Shown in pieces: positions 7,126-16,045 of a stretch of DNA of 64,000 nt. The position numbers and the translations under genes were made by a program. Position 1 is the stretch's first letter, and each line of letters begins with the position of its first letter. The notes under the pieces are model-generated. The model had not been told where the DNA came from. It saw nothing but the letters and a program-made list of their open reading frames with translations, and ran no database searches. This DNA comes from Dehalogenimonas alkenigignens. GTDB lineage: Bacteria; Chloroflexota; Dehalococcoidia; Dehalococcoidales; Dehalococcoidaceae. The stretch spans positions 803,684 through 867,683 of the forward strand of contig NZ_KQ758903.1 of assembly GCF_001466665.1 (NCBI RefSeq), written 5' to 3'.

Positions 7126-7371
7126 CTATCTCGCGGAGGCGTTTTTCAACAAGGTCGAGACTTCAGTTTTAGTTGGCACTTTGCCCGAGAGGACCACTTT
7201 TTCATCGATTACTAACGCAGGCGTCATCATCACCGGGTAGGCCATGATTTTGGCGATATCCTTAACTTTTTCGATCTCGGCATCAATGCCCATTTCTTTT
7301 ACCGCATCGCGAGTGATGGCTTCCAGTTGCTGACATTTAGGGCACCCCGTGCCCAGAATTTTGATTTTCAT
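7126..7371 (-). CDS. Small thioredoxin-fold protein (redox-active disulfide protein 2 type)
   Basis: An 81-residue minimal thioredoxin. It opens MKIKILGTGCPKCQQLEAI, with a CPKC redox pair directly after the first strand, and has the conserved cis-proline region in VMMTPALVIDEKVVLSGKVP. Such mini-thioredoxins often accompany DUF318/ArsP permeases and could reduce metalloid-bound or disulfide substrates. It lies 22 bases behind the permease on the same strand, so both are probably one transcript from the ArsR-type promoter near 8473-8501. Confidence 0.85.
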   Translation of the reverse strand: MKIKILGTGCPKCQQLEAITRDAVKEMGIDAEIEKVKDIAKIMAYPVMMTPALVIDEKVVLSGKVPTKTEVSTLLKNASAR

Positions 7372-7393: not shown

Positions 7394-8422
7394 TTAAAGC
7401 ATTCCAAATATCAGTCCCGCTAACGTAGATGATACTACTACGAGGCAAATATAGGTAAAAGCCCGTTTATTGCCCATGATCTTGCGAATGACCAGCATGC
7501 TGGGCAGCGATAACGCGGGTCCGGCCAGCAACAGCGCCAGCGCAGGGCCTTTGTCCATGCCCAGTTCTAAAAAGGCCTTGAGAATCGGCACTTCGGTCAG
7601 GGTGGCGAAGTACATCAACGCGCCGAAAACCGAGGCGAGCGCATTCGATATAATATTGCTGCTGCCTACGGCGCCGGTGATGATGTCCGCGGGAATGACC
7701 TCCTTGATGACCCCGGCCAGGAAGACGCCGCCGATCAGCCACGGGAAGATGAGTTTTACGAAAGCCCAGGTTTCCCGAAGCCAGTGTTTGATCTCATCAA
7801 CATTGAAAAAGCGCCAAAGCACGACTCCCAGCGTGGCCAATAAGATGACAGTTGCCGGCCAGTTTGCCGTGGAGGCGAAGATGAGTATACCGACCAGTGT
7901 GCCGAAAAAGAGAAGCGTCTGCCACAAAGGCCTGGAATCTCCGCCATCGGCGGTAAAAAGTTCGGGATTCGGTTGGGATTCATGGTCCTTGCGGAAAAAG
8001 TAGGCCATGATCAACCCGATGACGATAGCCAGCGATACCGCGGCGACAGCCCTGGCTAAGCCGATATCCCAGCCAAGTAGGCGGGCTGAATAGACGATCG
8101 CCAGAATGTTGATGGCCGGGCCTGAGAACAGGAAGGTGGTTGCCGGACCGATGCCGCCGCCGCGTTTGTAGATGCCGGCAAATAACGGCAATACGGTACA
8201 GGAACAAACGGCCAGGATGCTGCCTGAAACTGAGGCGACGCCGTAGCTTAGAAACTTGTTGGCTTGCGGTCCGAAATACTTGAGAACGGCCGGCGCCGAG
8301 ATGAACACTGCGACGCCACCAGCGATGAAGAAGGCGGGTACCAAACAGGTGAGCACGTGCGCCGACAGATAGTCAAAGAGAGCGGCGACACCGCTGGAGA
8401 ACAGGTTTAATACGAAATCCAC
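7394..8422 (-). CDS. Permease of the DUF318 / ArsP family
   Basis: A 342-residue integral membrane protein with eight or more hydrophobic segments. The family core is seen in SILAVCSCTVLPLFAGIYK, where two cysteines sit in a membrane helix, followed by GGGIGPATTFLFSGPAIN; a second SLPSMLVIRKIMG repeat lies near the C-terminus. ArsP members export trivalent methyl-arsenicals, and other members handle other metals, so the substrate is inferred from context. GTG at 8422 is the start, with AAAGGA upstream. The ArsR-like operator lies between promoter and start. Confidence 0.82.
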   Translation of the reverse strand: MDFVLNLFSSGVAALFDYLSAHVLTCLVPAFFIAGGVAVFISAPAVLKYFGPQANKFLSYGVASVSGSILAVCSCTVLPLFAGIYKRGGGIGPATTFLFSGPAINILAIVYSARLLGWDIGLARAVAAVSLAIVIGLIMAYFFRKDHESQPNPELFTADGGDSRPLWQTLLFFGTLVGILIFASTANWPATVILLATLGVVLWRFFNVDEIKHWLRETWAFVKLIFPWLIGGVFLAGVIKEVIPADIITGAVGSSNIISNALASVFGALMYFATLTEVPILKAFLELGMDKGPALALLLAGPALSLPSMLVIRKIMGNKRAFTYICLVVVSSTLAGLIFGML

Positions 8423-8571: not shown

Positions 8572-10335
8572 TTATTCCACCATATCCGCATATTTCCCTA
8601 TGTTTTGGATCGACGAGTCTTGAAGCCAGGGGATCACCACAAAATTTTCACTGCTTATCTCTTTGACCCTATCGATCCAAGGTTTTTCAGCTTCAGCCCG
8701 GGCGACGAGCATCGGATCGAGCGTATCGGTCAACGACAAGCTTTGGTTGATCACCCACCATCGGTTAGTGATACCGGCGCGGCACAGATCCTCCCGCAGG
8801 CGCTGCGCTTCAAAGACCGGGGTCGCCTCGGGCAGGGTGACGATGATGATTTCCGTCTGTTTTTCATCACGCAACCTGGGCAGCAGCCTTCGGACTGAAA
8901 CGGGGACTTCTCCTTTGGTTCGCTGCACCTCGCGGTGGTAGCTCTGGGTAGAGTCCAGAAGTAAAAGGGTATGCCCCGTCGGCGCGGTGTCGATAATCAC
9001 TACTTCGTTCTCGGCCCGGTCGACGATCTCGGCAAAAGCCCGGAACACGGCGATTTCCTGAGTGCAGGGGGAACGCAGGTCCTCCTCAACGTATGCTATA
9101 TCTGCCTCACACATGGTTTCGCGGGCTTTAGTCAAGACCTCGGTCTGGTAGTTCAATAATTCTCGCTGCTCATCGATCCGGCTTAAGGTAATGTTTTCGG
9201 TCTTTGCGATGACGTGCCTCAGGTTGTCAGCCGGGTCGGTCGAAGTCAGGTGCACCTTCACCCCTTTTTCGGCTAACGCCAGGGCGACAGCGGCGGCGAC
9301 CGCCGTTTTACCTACGCCGCCTTTACCCATGGTGAAAATGACCCTCTTACTAGTCCGATGCAGGTCGTCGACTAAGTCGGCCAGGGGTCTCAATGCCGGA
9401 AGTTGGTTTTTTGGCTGGCTGCTGCGATAGGCATCATCCTGGAAAAAAGCCCTGATTCGATCGAGACCGATGATATTATAAGACCGGAGCGGTACGGTGA
9501 AGGTGCGGAAATCCCGCAGCTGCAGCGACATTTCGTCGAGTGCTCGCCGTTGCTTGGCAAGAATACTCTGGGACACCGTGTCCGAGGCTGTACTCAATAC
9601 GCCGTTAATAATCAGTATCTGATTATTGATACCCAGATCACGGAGTTCAAGGCTGGTACGCCCGACTTCGATCAAGGGGAGTTCTTCCGGCCGAGACACC
9701 AGCACCAGGGTCGTTTTGGCTCCATCGGCAAGATTTAATACGGTGTCTTTGTATATCCCTTTTTTGGCTTCAAGTCCTGCAAGTTGACCTAAGCAAGATG
9801 CGCCATGGGTGCTTTCACTGATGAAATTACTCCAGGCAGAAGGCAGTTGCAGCATGCGAAGGGTATGACCGGTAGGTGCGGTGTCGAAGATGATGTGGTC
9901 GTACCGGGCGCCGATCTCCCGATCGGTGATGAACTTTGAGAACTGATCGAATGCGGCGATCTCTACGGTGCAGGAGCCGGAAAGTTGCTCCTCCATGTTG
10001 GCGATGACGCTTTCCGGCAACTTGCCACGATACGGCGCGACGACCGATTCCCTGTAGTGGCGGGCGGCCTCCACCGGGTCAAGATTGGCCGCTACCAGTC
10101 CCGGTACGCCTTCGATGGATACGCCTTTGCCATCGAGGGCGGTATCGAAGACATCCTGCAGATTGGATGCCGGGTCGGTACTTATTAAAAGTACCTTTTT
10201 GCCCCTGTCAGCCAAGTTCACGGCAACGGCGCAAGCGATTGAAGTTTTACCCACTCCGCCTTTACCTGTGAAGAACAGGTACTTGGTTGGATTGAGTTTG
10301 TCCAGGGTGAATGGTTCCGACCCGGTCGTGATCAC
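8572..10335 (-). CDS. arsA: Arsenite pump-driving ATPase ArsA
   Basis: A 587-residue two-domain ATPase of the GET3/ArsA group that couples ATP hydrolysis to arsenite efflux. Each half has its own P-loop: FFTGKGGVGKTSIA near residue 22 and FTMGKGGVGKTAVA near 335, and each has the DTAPTGHTLR signature. Cysteines that in ArsA bind As(III) are visible as SGSCTVE and ASCLG in the first half and SPCTQE in the second. It is the last gene of the long arsR operon, 19 bases after the ArsD fusion, its expected metallochaperone. Classical ArsA works with ArsB; here only Acr3 is present. Confidence 0.93.
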   Translation of the reverse strand: MITTGSEPFTLDKLNPTKYLFFTGKGGVGKTSIACAVAVNLADRGKKVLLISTDPASNLQDVFDTALDGKGVSIEGVPGLVAANLDPVEAARHYRESVVAPYRGKLPESVIANMEEQLSGSCTVEIAAFDQFSKFITDREIGARYDHIIFDTAPTGHTLRMLQLPSAWSNFISESTHGASCLGQLAGLEAKKGIYKDTVLNLADGAKTTLVLVSRPEELPLIEVGRTSLELRDLGINNQILIINGVLSTASDTVSQSILAKQRRALDEMSLQLRDFRTFTVPLRSYNIIGLDRIRAFFQDDAYRSSQPKNQLPALRPLADLVDDLHRTSKRVIFTMGKGGVGKTAVAAAVALALAEKGVKVHLTSTDPADNLRHVIAKTENITLSRIDEQRELLNYQTEVLTKARETMCEADIAYVEEDLRSPCTQEIAVFRAFAEIVDRAENEVVIIDTAPTGHTLLLLDSTQSYHREVQRTKGEVPVSVRRLLPRLRDEKQTEIIIVTLPEATPVFEAQRLREDLCRAGITNRWWVINQSLSLTDTLDPMLVARAEAEKPWIDRVKEISSENFVVIPWLQDSSIQNIGKYADMVE

Positions 10336-10354: not shown

Positions 10355-11266
10355 TCAGCAACATCCGCTGCGTTTCGGCGGTTTAACGGTCTCCAATTTC
10401 GTCTTCAGCCAACCCGTGAACTCTTGGTCGGTGGGGTAGGATTTTGTTTTTACCACTTCGCCATTAAGCAGGGTGACAGGCAAGACCCCGGCCCCCTCTT
10501 TTTCCAGAAGGTCGCTGACCACCGGGTTGGAGATGAAGCGCTGGGTATCGGTTGAAAGACCGTACCTCTGGACGATGATCCCCTTCTCTTTAAAGCTATT
10601 GATAGTTGTTGCCACTCTCATCAGTTCCGGGTCAATTGACGGGCCGCAAACTCCGGTTGAGCAGCACATAGCGGGGTCATAAATCTCAATTTCCTTCGCC
10701 ATGAGGCCTTGTTTCTTGTTATCGAAGTACCGCTGCAAATTGACCGGCAGTTCTTCAAGGGGAGCCGGAACAAGCGGTGGCATCTGATCAATATTCAACA
10801 TTGCTTCCATGATTGCTTCGATCAACAATGGAAGCGGAACGGAAGAGAAAACCTGGCCACGGTAATGCCACTCACGACAATCAACAATGGTTTCATTTTC
10901 AGTAAGATCTCCACAAGACTCACAAACAGATTCATGAATATCCTGATCGATATCCCGACCGTTGAGCCTGATGGTCGGCGAGCTTACCAAAGCATTCAAC
11001 TTTGCTTCGGCCGCAGTTTGTACAACAATCTCATGGTGACGTAATTCAATCCCCAGGGCATCGGCCGCTGGCTCAAGGATTTGGACCGCCGTTTTGAGTT
11101 CGTCTCCGGTCGGCACGCATCGTTTACAGGTTTCCAGGTCGATGACCAACAGATCGATGTTTAATACCTTCTCCATCTGCTGTTTTCCCTTGTTCCCTTT
11201 CGGACCAGCTTCAGGTTTGGTACCACATCCGCAATTTATTCCATTCACCGGTTTACAACAGTCCAA
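10355..11266 (-). CDS. arsD: DUF2703-ArsD fusion, arsenic metallochaperone
   Basis: A 303-residue protein joining two thiol domains. Residues about 35-155 match DUF2703, with ETCKRC (C47, C50) and CESC (C115, C118). Residues about 190-295 are an ArsD domain with the As(III)-binding CCSTGVC (C201, C202, C207) and a final Cys pair (RSGCC). The N-terminus is also Cys-rich (MDCCKPVNGINCGCG). ArsD hands As(III) to ArsA, the next gene. The TTG at 11266 is taken as start because the Cys-rich leader fits and GGGAGA precedes it. A separate ArsD start at the internal ATG (about 10701) lacks a good ribosome-binding site. Confidence 0.85.
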   Translation of the reverse strand: MDCCKPVNGINCGCGTKPEAGPKGNKGKQQMEKVLNIDLLVIDLETCKRCVPTGDELKTAVQILEPAADALGIELRHHEIVVQTAAEAKLNALVSSPTIRLNGRDIDQDIHESVCESCGDLTENETIVDCREWHYRGQVFSSVPLPLLIEAIMEAMLNIDQMPPLVPAPLEELPVNLQRYFDNKKQGLMAKEIEIYDPAMCCSTGVCGPSIDPELMRVATTINSFKEKGIIVQRYGLSTDTQRFISNPVVSDLLEKEGAGVLPVTLLNGEVVKTKSYPTDQEFTGWLKTKLETVKPPKRSGCC

Positions 11267-11402
11267 TTATTCTTTCTCCCGTTTTAGATTTAGCGCTAGC
11301 CAATGGCAATCAATTCATTCAATTTACGCCAGCAGCTTCCATCATGAAAACATTTCAACCGCAGCAACCAGCCTCGCCGTCCACCGGACGGCAGGATAAC
11401 GA

Positions 11403-11546
11403 TCAGACTGGCCCGTCGGTATTTGCCAGGGCCCCAAAGACCTGTACCAGGTTGACACTGCCGCAGACCAGGCAGGTCGCTTCGACTTCTTCGTCAGCGT
11501 CTGTTTCGACCTGTTCGCCGCAGTCTAAACACTTGTAGGTATCCAA
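11403..11546 (-). CDS. Zinc-ribbon miniprotein (47 aa)
   Basis: TTG at 11546 reads 47 residues to TGA at 11403. It starts MDTYKCLDCGEQ and carries a second knuckle TCLVCGSVNL, a rubredoxin/zinc-ribbon CxxC-CxxC layout with an acidic linker between. The TTG lies one base after the stop of the thioredoxin-fold gene, and AGAGG in the end of that gene serves as the ribosome-binding site, so translation is coupled. In this operon it may bind zinc or be a direct As(III) thiol site; that role is inference. Confidence 0.75.
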   Translation of the reverse strand: MDTYKCLDCGEQVETDADEEVEATCLVCGSVNLVQVFGALANTDGPV

Positions 11547-11547
11547 T

Positions 11548-11892
11548 CTACTTTGCCTCTGTTCTTTTCCTGAGCTCCCGCTCCAGGACCGTCACTATCT
11601 GGGAAGGATAGATGGTAGCCATGCATACGGGCTTACCATTCAAGGTGATTATGGGTAACGCGCCGATACCGTAGGTATTGAAAGCCTTGATGACCGGGGC
11701 GAATTTCTCGTCTTCGGTGTCGATCTCCTGGATGTCGACAACTTCCGCTGGCTCCTTCAGTACTTTCTCCACGGCCGCTTTGATCGCTTCAATCGTCTCC
11801 GACGATTGCCCCTTGGGCCCTCAGCAGCTTGACTGGGGACCGCAGGGATTGCTTTCAGGGAATACGACGATGGCGGCTTTAAGATTGTCCAT
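11548..11892 (-). CDS. Thioredoxin-fold protein with in-frame UGA: candidate selenoprotein
   Basis: ATG at 11892 has a strong AAAGGAG six bases upstream and sits 12 bases after acr3. Twenty-three codons lead to UGA at 11823-11821, directly after Cys23, in the context NPCGPQSSC-UGA-GPKG. The same frame then stays open for 90 more codons to TAG at 11548, giving 114 residues. The downstream part looks like a thioredoxin-fold C-terminus: EVVDIQEIDTEDE, then GIGALPIITLNGKPV with the cis-proline. The only internal start (GTG 11772) has no ribosome-binding site. A SECIS-like hairpin follows the UGA. Reading UGA as Sec would give a Cys-Sec pair where relatives would be expected to have Cys-Cys. Alternative: a recent nonsense mutation or a truncated gene. 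Confidence 0.65.
11790..11808 (-). promoter_or_regulatory. SECIS-like hairpin after the in-frame UGA
   Basis: CAATCGTC and GACGATTG form a perfect eight-base-pair stem around the loop GGA, on the mRNA strand. The stem spans nucleotides +13 to +31 after the UGA, so the apical loop is at +21 to +23 and starts with G. Bacterial SECIS elements have a short G-containing apical loop roughly 16-37 nt after the UGA; this fits by eye. Confidence 0.5.
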
Positions 11893-11904
11893 GTTTTCTC
11901 CTTT

Positions 11905-12981
11905 CTATTTGTACACAATTTCGAAGGGTTTATCGAAATAGCGCCGCTTGAAGTAGAGCGCTACGTTGACCAGGATGATAAGCGCCGGCACTTCGATCAG
12001 AGGCCCGATTACAGTGGCGAAGGCTTCGCCGGAATGCAGGCCGAAGATGGCGATAGCCACAGCGATAGCTAGCTCGAAATCATTGGAGGCCGCGGTGAAT
12101 GATACGGCAGTCGTCTGTGGGTAGGTCGCCCCCATCTTGCGGGCGATGAAAAAGGTTGCGAACCACATGATGCCGAAATATAGCGCTAACGGCAAGGCGA
12201 TACGGGCCACATCCAGCGGCAATGCGATGATGTTCTCGCCTTTGAGCGAGAACATGACGATGATCGTGAATAGAAGAGCCGCCGGAGTGATGTAGCTGAT
12301 TTTGGGCAGATACGATTTTTCCAGCCACTCTTTGCCTTTAACTTTGATCAGGGCGTACCGGCTTATAACACCGGCGATCAACGGTATGCCAAGAAAGATG
12401 AATACCACTCGGGCGGACTCAGCGATCGAGATTGACGCCGATATCTCTTCAACCAAGCCTAATTTGGGCAGGAGGAACGAAATAAAGATGAAGATATAGA
12501 CGGCATACAGAAGCATTTGGAACAGGGCGTTGAAAGCCACCATGCCTACCGCTAACTCCCGGTCGCCTTTGGCCAGGTCGTTCCAGACGATGACCATAGC
12601 GATGCACCGGGCCAGCCCGACCAGGATGAGGCCTACCATATACTCCGGCATATCGCGTAAGAACAGGATAGCCAGGCCGAACATCACCAAAGGGCCAATA
12701 ATCCAGTTCTGTACAAGTGAAAAAGCCAGCAGTTTCAGGTTTTTGAGCACTTTTGGCAGCTGATCGTAATTAACTTTGGTCAGCGGCGGATACATCATCA
12801 GGATGAGACCTATGGCGATGGGAATGGATATGGCCCCAGCCTGGAGGGAAGTGATGGCCTCGGTGACGCCGGGGGCTATCTGCCCCATCAGAATACCGAA
12901 ACCCATAGCTAGGAATATCCATAACGTTAGGAACCGCTCCAGAATGGGAAGCTTGGCGGCGATGGATTTTCCTTGGTTCAT
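11905..12981 (-). CDS. acr3: Arsenite efflux permease Acr3
   Basis: A 358-residue ten-helix transporter of the Acr3 (BART) family that exports As(III). Diagnostic is [19 protein letters not shown], with the conserved Cys of helix 4, and [19 protein letters not shown] near the C-terminus. The ATG at 12981 overlaps the usp stop (TGATG) and has GGAGG upstream; a longer in-frame reading to 13035 would lie inside usp and lacks a signal. Acr3 can work alone by the membrane potential; the presence of ArsA and ArsD in the same operon suggests an ATP-assisted mode. Confidence 0.93.
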
Positions 12982-13457
12982 CAAACGTGTCCTCCCTGAC
13001 GGGTGTCCCTTTTGATTATCAGCACCGGCTGACAACTACGCTTGATGACTCCTTCCGATACGGAGCCTAAGATGGTCTCCTGCAGATTGCTTTTACCCGT
13101 CGAACCGATCACGATTACCGAGACCGCTTCGTCTTCGGCCGTTTTCAGTATTTCGGCTAAAGGATTGCCTTCACGTACAATACCTTTGGCGCTGAAACCG
13201 GCTGTCTTCAATTCATTGACAATATTCCGTACGTTCTCCAGGTGTTCATTCTCGAGGCGCTTGAACTCCGTGTTGAGGTCGATAGGGTAGTTTCCGGTCA
13301 CTCCGCCGAGAAGTGCTAAATTTCGGAGTTCTTTCCGGTCGAGAATATGCAATATCACCACCTCCTGCGCGCCGGCTGGTTTTAATTGTTTAATATATTC
13401 CAGTGCCCTCGTCGCAACCTCGGAGAAATCCGTTGGGTATAGAACCTTTCTGAACAT
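12981..13457 (-). CDS. Universal stress protein, UspA family
   Basis: A 158-residue Usp domain. It begins [21 protein letters not shown] and ends with the nucleotide-binding signature [25 protein letters not shown] in which G-2x-G-9x-G(S/T) can be traced, so it belongs to the ATP-binding branch. Its stop overlaps the acr3 start, showing that the two are translated together. Usp genes are not standard arsenic genes, but they occur in some ars operons; here it may signal stress or tune the pump. That role is inferred. Confidence 0.88.
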
Positions 13458-13476: not shown

Positions 13477-14169
13477 CTAAATCCAAAACGTCAAAGCAAA
13501 ATATATCCCGGCTCCGATCATGAGGACTCCCGCCGCTTTTTTGAAGTAAAGAGATATGTTCCCGATTCCTTTTGAAGCAAGAACTCTTTGAGCAAATCCC
13601 ACCGAGATTCCAGCGCCAAGCACCAGCATCCAGTGTCCGAGCGCGTATGTTAGAAGAAGACCACTGCTGAAGGCAATATTGTCTTGAGCCGCCGCCATGA
13701 CCAGGATCACCGCCAGTACCGGCGTAGCGCATGGCGAGGCAATAATGCCGAAGAAAAGGCCCATGAGCAACGCTCCCCACAGCGCTTTCTGTTCAGGCAC
13801 TATCCTCTGGGGGATATTGATTGAGAAATTGAATACACCGAGAAGAAGCAGTCCCAGGACGATAGCCGCCGGCGGCAGCAGGTATTTCCAAAAGCCGCCG
13901 ACATCGCCAAACAAACGCCCCAATGTCCCTGCCACGACTCCCAGTAGGGTGAAGGTGATGGTTAGACCAAGAACAAAAACCACAGAGTACTGCACGGCCT
14001 TGGTCCTGGAACCTTCGGCATAGCCGCCAACGTAACCGATGATAAGGGGTATCGTCGGTAGAACGCAGGGGCTGGCACTGGAAGCAATCCCTCCGGCGAA
14101 AGCAGCGGGAAATGCCAGCCAGCTTTGAGCCTGGATAGTCTCGCCAAGCCCGCTTAGTAATCCTTCCAT
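13477..14169 (-). CDS. ccdA: CcdA/DsbD-type thiol electron carrier
   Basis: A 230-residue, six-helix membrane protein of the CcdA family, which moves reducing power from cytoplasmic thioredoxin to thiol proteins outside the membrane. Both half-site cysteines appear: ASSASPCVLPTIPLIIGYVGG near residue 33 and FFGIIASPCATPVLAVI near 145. Its start touches the stop of the thioredoxin lipoprotein gene, the natural electron acceptor. Elsewhere CcdA serves cytochrome c maturation; here the arsenic context suggests reduction of an external thiol or metalloid. Confidence 0.9.
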   Translation of the reverse strand: MEGLLSGLGETIQAQSWLAFPAAFAGGIASSASPCVLPTIPLIIGYVGGYAEGSRTKAVQYSVVFVLGLTITFTLLGVVAGTLGRLFGDVGGFWKYLLPPAAIVLGLLLLGVFNFSINIPQRIVPEQKALWGALLMGLFFGIIASPCATPVLAVILVMAAAQDNIAFSSGLLLTYALGHWMLVLGAGISVGFAQRVLASKGIGNISLYFKKAAGVLMIGAGIYFALTFWI

Positions 14170-14576
14170 CAGGTCAGCCCCAAACTCCTCAGTTGCACTA
14201 ATATCGAACTCAGCGACCAGACCCCGACATGACGGGTGACTTCCTTGCCGCTCGAATCGAAGACGATCTGGGTCGGGATTCCCAGGATACCGTATTGTTG
14301 AGTCAGCGCTTTTTGCTCGTATACATCGATAATGACCACGTTGAGTTGGCTATCGTACATGTTAGCCAGGTCTTCCAGTATCGGTTTCATCTCCCTGCAA
14401 GGTATACAACTATTCGATCCGAATTCAGCCAGGGTTATTTTTCCGTTTGACAGCGCCGCTGGTAATGCGATTGTGATCGGTGCCGGCTCAGGGGTCTTTT
14501 GGCAGGCAACGGGTAAAGCCAGGATTCCAAGGGCAAGCAATACTGCCAACAGGTGTCTCATCTTAAGCAGCCTCAC
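14169..14576 (-). CDS. Thioredoxin-family lipoprotein
   Basis: A 135-residue secreted lipoprotein. The N-terminus is a signal peptide (MRHLLAVLLALGILALPVAC) with lipobox LPVAC, so Cys25 would be lipidated and the protein held outside the membrane. The mature part has a thioredoxin fold with EFGSNSCIPCREMKPIL (CIPC) and the cis-proline in GILGIPTQIVFD. It overlaps ccdA by one base and the permease by four, so CcdA very likely keeps it reduced. An alternative start at MRHLL, five codons in, is possible. Confidence 0.88.
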   Translation of the reverse strand: MRLLKMRHLLAVLLALGILALPVACQKTPEPAPITIALPAALSNGKITLAEFGSNSCIPCREMKPILEDLANMYDSQLNVVIIDVYEQKALTQQYGILGIPTQIVFDSSGKEVTRHVGVWSLSSILVQLRSLGLT

Positions 14577-15142
14577 GCCCTATTTGGCACTTTCGCCCCG
14601 GCTGGAACAGCCTCGCCCGGGTTCAACACCTCGAAGTTCTTGCTTTCGAGGTATTTTTCCATGAGCAGGCCGATGCCGATGAACAAAGGCAGGGAGATGA
14701 GCGTTCTCGCCAGTGTGAATTCCAATCCGAGGTAACCGATCTCAATGCCCAGCATGGGCAACTTCATCGAAGAGAAAGCCCCTAGGTAGATAAAGATGTT
14801 GCGGACGCTGGTGCCCTTTTTATAAAGGACATAGGCCACGGGGAAGGCGCCGTACAGTGGCCCGGCTTGGAGCATGGCCAATAGTACAACAAGGAACATC
14901 CCCTTGATCCCTGACTCCTTGCCGAGGTGCTTCTGGATCTGTTCCTTAGGCACCCAGACATCGAACAAGCCAACAATGATAAACAGGAAGGGTACGAACG
15001 ATAGTAGTTCGAAGACCGACACTCGGAAATTGGTGAACACCGTCTTGCCCGGGTCAAAGCCGATGGCGAAAGATAATAAGGTGGCGACAGCAAAGGCGGC
15101 TAACCATACGTACGGCTGATACCTTTTGGCGAACTTTTTCAC
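14573..15142 (-). CDS. Permease, second half (DUF318-like)
   Basis: A 189-residue membrane protein with about five helices. It carries the family segment MLQAGPLYGAFPVAYVLYKKG and SSMKLPMLGIEIGYLG, which correspond to one repeat of the two-repeat DUF318/ArsP permease. The preceding gene encodes the other repeat, so the transporter is probably a heterodimer of split halves. Its start overlaps that gene by four bases. Substrate unknown; context suggests a metalloid or thiol compound. Confidence 0.75.
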   Translation of the reverse strand: MKKFAKRYQPYVWLAAFAVATLLSFAIGFDPGKTVFTNFRVSVFELLSFVPFLFIIVGLFDVWVPKEQIQKHLGKESGIKGMFLVVLLAMLQAGPLYGAFPVAYVLYKKGTSVRNIFIYLGAFSSMKLPMLGIEIGYLGLEFTLARTLISLPLFIGIGLLMEKYLESKNFEVLNPGEAVPAGAKVPNRA

Positions 15143-15621
15143 AGAATGACTCCGATCGCCAGGCCGATGATGATGGCGGCGAAGAAATTGAGGACATTTC
15201 GGGCGATGGCGGCCCGGCGGCCGAGATACTGGATCTCCAATGGCAGGGTAACGATTCCGACCATGATCAGCGTGGTCATCAACGTAGCAACCACGGCATA
15301 GCTAGCCCCCTGCTGGAGCAAGCCGGCGGCAATCGGGTAGGAGATGAACGGCGGGATAAAGGCGATTGAACCGACGATCGCGGCGATGAAGAAGCCGCCA
15401 ACGCCTGATCCTGCGCCGAGGTATTCCTCGATGGCGCTGGGCGGAATGGCGAACAAGGCAATGCTGACGATGATCAGGATATTCAGAAGAGGCAAGAGAA
15501 TCCGCTTGAACATCTGCCAGCCCCTCTTGAAGCCAGCCATAGTTTTCTCTTTGTCGAGAAAAAAGGAAACTGCCGACACTGCGACGGCCACGGAAATGAA
15601 GATGAGAGCGTTACTGCTCAA
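15139..15621 (-). CDS. Permease, first half (DUF318-like)
   Basis: A 160-residue membrane protein with about four helices, including GGFFIAAIVGSIAFIPPFIS then YPIAAGLLQQGASYAVVATL, which resembles the other half of DUF318 permeases. It is the first gene after arsR (19-base gap) and overlaps the partner half by four bases. In most relatives the two repeats are in one chain, as in the ArsP-like permease at 7394-8422 of this same island. Confidence 0.75.
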   Translation of the reverse strand: MSSNALIFISVAVAVSAVSFFLDKEKTMAGFKRGWQMFKRILLPLLNILIIVSIALFAIPPSAIEEYLGAGSGVGGFFIAAIVGSIAFIPPFISYPIAAGLLQQGASYAVVATLMTTLIMVGIVTLPLEIQYLGRRAAIARNVLNFFAAIIIGLAIGVIL

Positions 15622-15640: not shown

Positions 15641-16045
15641 TTAATTTCGGGAGTCGATAACCTGAGATTCGGGGCGAGAGACAGCGCTGGTTACAACAGC
15701 TTTACTTCCCTGAGGGCAAAGCCGGGAGCTTTCTCTAAGTCGCCGGCGATCTTCGACGGCCAATGTAGTGCCCGAAAGAGACGCTTCGGCGGCGGATATT
15801 ATTAGCCGGCGAAAGTCGTTATTGATCATCGGTGAAAGATAATATATCGTCCAAAGTCCTTCACGCCGCTGTTCGAGCAGTCCCGCTTCATAGAGTTGCG
15901 ATAGATTTCGTGAGGCTCTCGTCTGTGAGATGCCTAACGCCTGCATCACCTCGCATACGCAACACTCGCGTTCAATAATCAAATTGAGGATGCGCAGCCT
16001 GGTCTCATCAGACAGCGCCTTGAAAATCCTGATTAGCTCCTTCAT
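15641..16045 (-). CDS. arsR: ArsR-family metalloregulatory repressor
   Basis: A 134-residue winged-helix repressor that releases DNA on binding As(III) or Sb(III). The metal site is visible as ERECCVCEVMQALG, an extended form of the ELCVCDL motif in the recognition-region helix, followed by the helix-turn-helix ISQTRASRNLSQLYEAGL. The C-terminal 35 residues are a tail beyond the usual 100-residue core. It is first in its operon and has its presumed operator over its own -10 element, so it autoregulates; the same site fronts the permease unit. Confidence 0.93.
   Translation of the reverse strand: MKELIRIFKALSDETRLRILNLIIERECCVCEVMQALGISQTRASRNLSQLYEAGLLEQRREGLWTIYYLSPMINNDFRRLIISAAEASLSGTTLAVEDRRRLRESSRLCPQGSKAVVTSAVSRPESQVIDSRN

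Follow-up and report, generated by a model that had tools for sequence, protein, structure and literature searches.

ArsD, an arsenite metallochaperone with a thioredoxin-type fold that is encoded in ars operons (PF06953, NF033727; PDB 3kgk, 3mwh, 3ktb), is among the closest described counterparts of the protein reported here. Three of its residues, Cys12, Cys13 and Cys18, are involved in the transfer of As(III) to ArsA (PMC12607644). Selenocysteine (Sec), for its part, is mostly discussed as a redox residue. Selenoproteins that act on arsenic, as we infer for the present protein, include arsenate reductase (UxxS), an arsenate reductase-like protein (UxxC) and arsenite methyltransferase (UxxG), which are other families with other motifs; none of them matches the protein described below. 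Among the 119 selenoprotein families and subfamilies catalogued in 2026 are arsenate reductases and arsenite methyltransferases, but no ArsD-like family (PMC13188914), and the openly licensed literature that we searched holds nothing on an ArsD selenoprotein.

On the Sec-assisted organometallic (SAO) system, the same literature search returned nothing beyond a review (PMC13188914). The SAO operon encodes several selenoproteins with a presumed role in metal handling, and the SaoC and SaoL proteins carry adjacent Cys and Sec in CU motifs (PMC13188914). In addition, FmdB selenoproteins with a CxxU motif have been predicted in the GOS metagenome (PMC2398784).

Here we describe an ars operon within the window, the 64,000-nt stretch of DNA from Dehalogenimonas alkenigignens, an anaerobic member of the Chloroflexota, that was analysed. 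The frame from 11892 to 11548 is very likely a single gene whose UGA at codon 24 is decoded as Sec; this conclusion is drawn from comparative evidence, without protein or labelling data. We place the probability that the product is a Sec-containing, ArsD-related protein of the ars operon at roughly 0.92.

Genomic context

The features of the locus are collected in Table 1. The original prediction placed the gene in an arsenic operon, and this holds, with ACR3, ArsA and ArsD all scoring above their NCBIfam cut-offs. Across the homologous loci described below, ACR3 lies directly upstream of the ArsD-like gene in seven of nine. In most loci the gene is preceded by ArsR and a split permease and followed by an ArsP-type permease and ArsE-type thioredoxin, with ArsD and ArsA additionally present in the window and in the locus of genome G242. 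The operon genes examined include none recognised as an arsenate reductase. The operon resembles SAO in its adjacent Cys-Sec pair and in its probable second selenoprotein, and its ArsP-type permease resembles SaoE, below cut-off. It differs in that no Sao family matched the ArsD-like protein and in its composition of ACR3, ArsP, ArsD and ArsA.

Table 1 Features of the ars locus, in window coordinates
Feature	Position	Strand	Remarks
ArsR-type repressor	15641..16045	(-)	
Thioredoxin	14169-14576	(-)	Relative in G657 operon
DsbD-like membrane protein	13477-14169	(-)	Relative in G657 operon
ACR3 arsenite exporter	11905..13035	(-)	Directly upstream of the ArsD-like gene; TIGR00832 426.8 bits, cut-off 282.8
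Shine-Dalgarno AAGGAG	11898..11903	(-)	Upstream of ATG 11892
Selenoprotein gene (very likely)	11548..11892	(-)	114 codons, Sec at codon 24; thioredoxin fold, remote ArsD relative
UGA read as Sec (very likely), codon 24	11821..11823	(-)	UGA in 9/9 genus homologues; TGC in G657 relative
SECIS hairpin CAATCGTC-GGA-GACGATTG	11790..11808	(-)	+13 to +31 after UGA; same spacing in 9/9; 208/208 synonymous identity
FmdB-type zinc ribbon	11355..11546	(-)	Probable Sec in tail ...GPV-U-SLSCRPVDGEAGCCG; probable start TTG 11546, end TGA 11357-11355
UGA of FmdB-type gene, probably Sec	11403..11405	(-)	
SECIS-like hairpin GCCGTCC-GGT-GGACGGC	11376..11392	(-)	Loop start 17 nt after UGA
DUF2703-ArsD fusion	10355..11266	(-)	ArsD over NCBIfam cut-off
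ArsA arsenical pump-driving ATPase	8572..10335	(-)	TIGR04291 815.5 bits, cut-off 650
ArsP-type permease	7394..8422	(-)	PF03773
MTH895/ArsE-family thioredoxin-like protein	7126..7371	(-)	TIGR00412 over cut-off

Adjacent small membrane proteins at 15139-15621 and 14573-15142 (minus strand) look as if a single SO_0444/ArsP-type permease had been split in two. In the fusion protein (10355-11266), the DUF2703 portion shows a similarity below cut-off (E 7.5e-9) to NF049942, the 'DF family (seleno)protein' model.

The ArsD-like gene starts at ATG 11892 on the minus strand, and 90 sense codons separate the UGA at codon 24 from the TAG at 11550-11548. This start, its ribosome-binding site, the UGA and the 90-codon continuation had all been proposed from sequence alone, and every detail held when checked. 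So did the claimed lack of a ribosome-binding site at the internal start, a GTG at 11772 without a Shine-Dalgarno sequence that is not kept in the homologues.

Conservation of the UGA codon and its hairpin

A protein search that reads through stops, run over 400 genomes of the phylum, recovered nine homologues from all eight genomes of the genus, with 35-81% identity to the window protein. Each contains exactly one in-frame TGA, and the nine TGAs occupy one alignment column. This uniformity is not an artefact of the method, because a stop-tolerant search would have found Cys forms too. An ATG with a purine-rich, Shine-Dalgarno-like sequence upstream is present in all nine, and no internal start codon is conserved among them, G242 having none in the 50 codons after the UGA. 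Constraint is similar on either side of the UGA (pN/pS 0.62 before, 0.51 after). Cys directly precedes Sec in seven copies and stands four residues before it in G256a (one of two copies in genome G256) and in the copy of genome G178; the window and G242 proteins have one extra Cys, six residues before the Cys-Sec pair. Single-sequence and alignment scans of the genome contig collection found no relative, although records near the window's genome may have been left out, and a plasmid tblastn for the ArsD-like gene gave no match.

The SECIS hairpin begins 12 nt after the TGA in all nine homologues and is frozen at the nucleotide level: beneath it, 208 of 208 same-residue codon pairs are identical, whereas outside it the figure is 632 of 1507 (42%). 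It comprises a perfect 8-bp stem and a 3-nt GGA loop starting 20 nt after the UGA, and it meets the published bacterial SECIS model; the stem, loop and +13 to +31 placement had been correctly predicted (11808-11790). In G256b, the other G256 copy, GTC replaces GGA in the loop, exchanging Glu for Ser and keeping the G[G/U] start. The hairpins of selD and FdhA have the loops CGGGT and AGTTT, which, like the GGA or GTC of the ArsD-like family, contain G[G/U] near their start.

To ask whether the site could be chance, UGA trinucleotides were counted on both strands of the 64,000-nt window. Of 2093, only codon 24 is followed, at the spacing of a bacterial SECIS, by a perfect stem of at least 8 bp with a G[G/U] loop; the combination of UGA and hairpin is more than chance. 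At a stem length of at least 7 bp, with the same loop and spacing, five of the 2093 qualify, including UGA 11405 of the next gene downstream. The remaining three strong sites lie in short open stretches that are not gene-like. Folding energy contributes less: the 48-nt stretch containing the hairpin has -13.4 kcal/mol, and the z-score of the single sequence is a modest -1.5, so that the case rests on conservation and comparison rather than on energy. Searching the genome with a loose hairpin pattern returned only noise. A purely regulatory hairpin was considered and rejected on conservation.

Two loci deserve separate mention. The G256a copy (L017, G256:C1:1164500-1179500, gene near 7405) is an orphan without an adjoining ACR3, outside any ars operon; its flanks are like those of the G178 operon, and both UGA and SECIS are retained. 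The second G256 copy (L019) heads a permease operon. G178 itself is apparently close to the window's genome, with near-identical tRNA-Sec and selD scores; its copy of the ArsD-like gene is only ~43% identical to that of the window and lies at another site. The divergence and location of this copy hint at a possible exchange of ars operons within the genus.

Sec machinery and a Cys-containing relative

In the window's genome, the genes for tRNA-Sec, selD, selA and selB form one cluster (C1:448759-453491). Sec is used elsewhere in the genus, with an in-frame TGA in selD in all eight genomes, the host included, and in FdhA in seven of eight. The same sel genes are described for a published Dehalogenimonas genome, in which SelD and FdhA contain Sec (PMC4918011). 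In three genomes of a sister genus, selB and selD were not above cut-off, and the ArsD-like gene is also absent.

One further clear relative (E 4.3e-20) emerged when 393 genomes of the class were searched with a profile; it comes from genome G657, which belongs to another family of the class, and lies in a similar ars operon. Its gene is one continuous open frame from ATG and reads SSC-C-GPAVGQTEEEI, with the codons TGC TGC GGT, placing Cys where the genus has Sec. No selB was found above cut-off in G657, a genome that is 82% complete. The neighbouring genes are homologues of the window's ArsR, ArsP-type permease, ArsE-type thioredoxin and zinc ribbon, and they also match the thioredoxin, DsbD-like, ACR3-like (26% identity) and USP genes of the window. 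The G657 match was reported with an internal TAG, but this does not coincide with the Sec site. The same profile search gave weak matches in G406 and G027, and matches in G501 and G738 proved to be true ArsD.

Relation to ArsD

An AlphaFold2 prediction based on the nine sequences has a thioredoxin fold (mean pLDDT 79) that includes the N-terminal strand; confidence drops below 50 in residues 14-25, which hold the Sec. The seven best PDB chains found by Foldseek are all ArsD, with modest E-values of 4.3e-3 to 1.6e-2. VIA-align ranks generic thioredoxin folds at Z about 7 and ArsD slightly lower, 3kgk sharing its Z of 6.6 with other thioredoxin folds. When the family is aligned to three ArsD sequences with hhalign (E 1.4e-7), U24 falls on the VCGP Cys, Cys18 in the numbering of ArsD. 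The two thus share a [C/U]GP motif and a cis-Pro-like LP...G region, in addition to fold and operon.

Against the ArsD profiles, the window protein scores 16.5 bits in Pfam (cut-off 27, E 0.011) and 15.3 bits in NCBIfam (cut-off 90), and the G657 relative reaches 26 bits in Pfam (E 1.2e-5), one below the cut-off. No Pfam or NCBIfam cut-off (June 2026) is reached by the ArsD-like selenoprotein. Unlike ArsD, the window protein has Sec for Cys18 and lacks both the Cys12-Cys13 pair and the C-terminal Cys pairs, and its family usually occurs without ArsA in the locus. The As(III) site of ArsD, Cys12-Cys13 plus Cys18 (PMC12607644), is not reproduced: only the Cys18 position is retained, as Sec, preceded by a different Cys, and with the Cys12-Cys13 pair missing the protein is not ArsD by the defining features of ArsD. 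The kinship is remote, and the structural model is weak exactly in the Sec loop. The proposal of a thioredoxin-fold C-terminal part is upheld and refined, from a generic thioredoxin to a remote relative of ArsD.

A probable second selenoprotein

Directly downstream of the ArsD-like gene lies an FmdB-type zinc ribbon gene, whose UGA at 11405-11403 closes an annotated-looking frame. This site had been missed by the original prediction. The zinc ribbon of G657 continues through a Cys codon at this point (...TSC-SLSCRPTDGSTCCG versus ...GPV-U-SLSCRPVDGEAGCCG in the window), so that the UGA falls on Cys. Eleven of 15 residues after this position match between the two, and the tail beyond the UGA is therefore coding. 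A second selenoprotein is the likely reading, although its basis is one UGA and one Cys sequence, and it is less secure than the ArsD-like gene. The window protein does not meet the FmdB model TIGR02605 (21-22 bits, cut-off 31.3), versus 45.5 bits for the G657 counterpart. Like the GOS proteins (PMC2398784), this is an FmdB-type zinc ribbon with a predicted Sec, but here the Sec lies in the C-terminal tail (U-SLSCRP) rather than in CxxU.

Other matches of a class-wide FmdB search have no such tail where read. In several Dehalococcoidia genomes, a similar hairpin, of the type GTGAGGCAG-GTT-GCCTCAC follows the UGA stop of FmdB genes (L065, L066, L067, L069, L074, L081); given further in-frame stops, Sec at those sites is unlikely.

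Discussion

The selenoprotein reading rests on the UGA shared by all nine homologues, the frozen hairpin, the complete sel machinery, the other Sec genes of the genus and the Cys-containing relative in G657. It would have been refuted, according to the original prediction, by a host without sel genes together with relatives that all carry Cys. This is not the case: selA, selB, selC and selD are all present in the host genome, and the aligned homologues of the genus have UGA at codon 24 without exception, none having Cys, with the hairpin conserved at the nucleotide level. That prediction is thus supported by comparison, and Sec remains without protein-level proof. Its further suggestion of a metalloid-binding redox protein is still an inference.

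Comparison shows UGA codon 24 to be a selected sense codon in a host that decodes Sec; SelB and tRNA-Sec very likely read it, guided by the SECIS hairpin that begins 12 nt after it. In the most likely role of the protein, its Cys-Sec ligands would bind trivalent arsenic or organoarsenicals, which would be handed to the exporters ACR3 and ArsP, or to ArsA where it is present. We infer such a role because the gene lies directly behind ACR3 and has both an ArsP-type exporter and an ArsE-type thioredoxin in its vicinity. Arsenic handling is a likely function on this inference. For binding and delivery over redox catalysis our preference is slight, also inferred, and the evidence decides neither.

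The main rival is accordingly a redox enzyme, in which Sec at the start of helix 1 would reduce arsenate, a pentavalent organoarsenical or a different oxidant, after which the ArsE-type thioredoxin of the operon would regenerate it. In its favour are the thioredoxin fold, the presence of an ArsE-type thioredoxin, a thioredoxin and a DsbD-like protein in the operon, the lack of a recognised arsenate reductase among the operon genes examined, and the fact that most selenoproteins of known function are redox enzymes (PMC13188914). However, the protein has neither CxxU nor UxxC, the partner Cys being adjacent to Sec or four residues before it, and the best fold matches are to ArsD, a binding protein. 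We rate this rival below binding and delivery, at less than even odds.

A two-cistron arrangement, with a 23-residue peptide terminated by the UGA and a protein started separately, is very unlikely. GTG 11772 could serve as an internal start, but no such start is conserved, and the first 50 codons beyond the UGA contain none at all in G242. The G657 relative reads through the site in an unbroken frame, with Cys there, and the N-terminal strand belongs to the predicted fold. A nonsense mutation, pseudogene or sequencing error, suggested by a single UGA interrupting an otherwise good frame in the window's genome, is all but excluded, as far as sequence can show, by the same UGA in nine copies from eight genomes, by constraint on both sides and by the frozen hairpin.

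Returning to binding and delivery, a bolder version would join the ArsD-like and FmdB-like proteins in a two-selenoprotein metalloid relay, a Sec-dependent arsenic metallochaperone system. In each protein, As(III) or organoarsenicals would be bound by Sec together with neighbouring Cys and passed on to ACR3 and ArsP. We regard this as tentative, with the balance tipped modestly against it.

Automatic annotation likely truncates or misses the ArsD-like selenoprotein gene across the genus. The gene would represent a new selenoprotein family, one in which Sec occupies the place of a metalloid ligand. The still growing list of selenoproteins would thereby become one family longer, and for FmdB-type proteins the position of the Sec is probably new as well. 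With Sec at the metal-ligand position of an ArsD-like fold, this selenoprotein makes the idea of Sec as a soft metalloid ligand testable.
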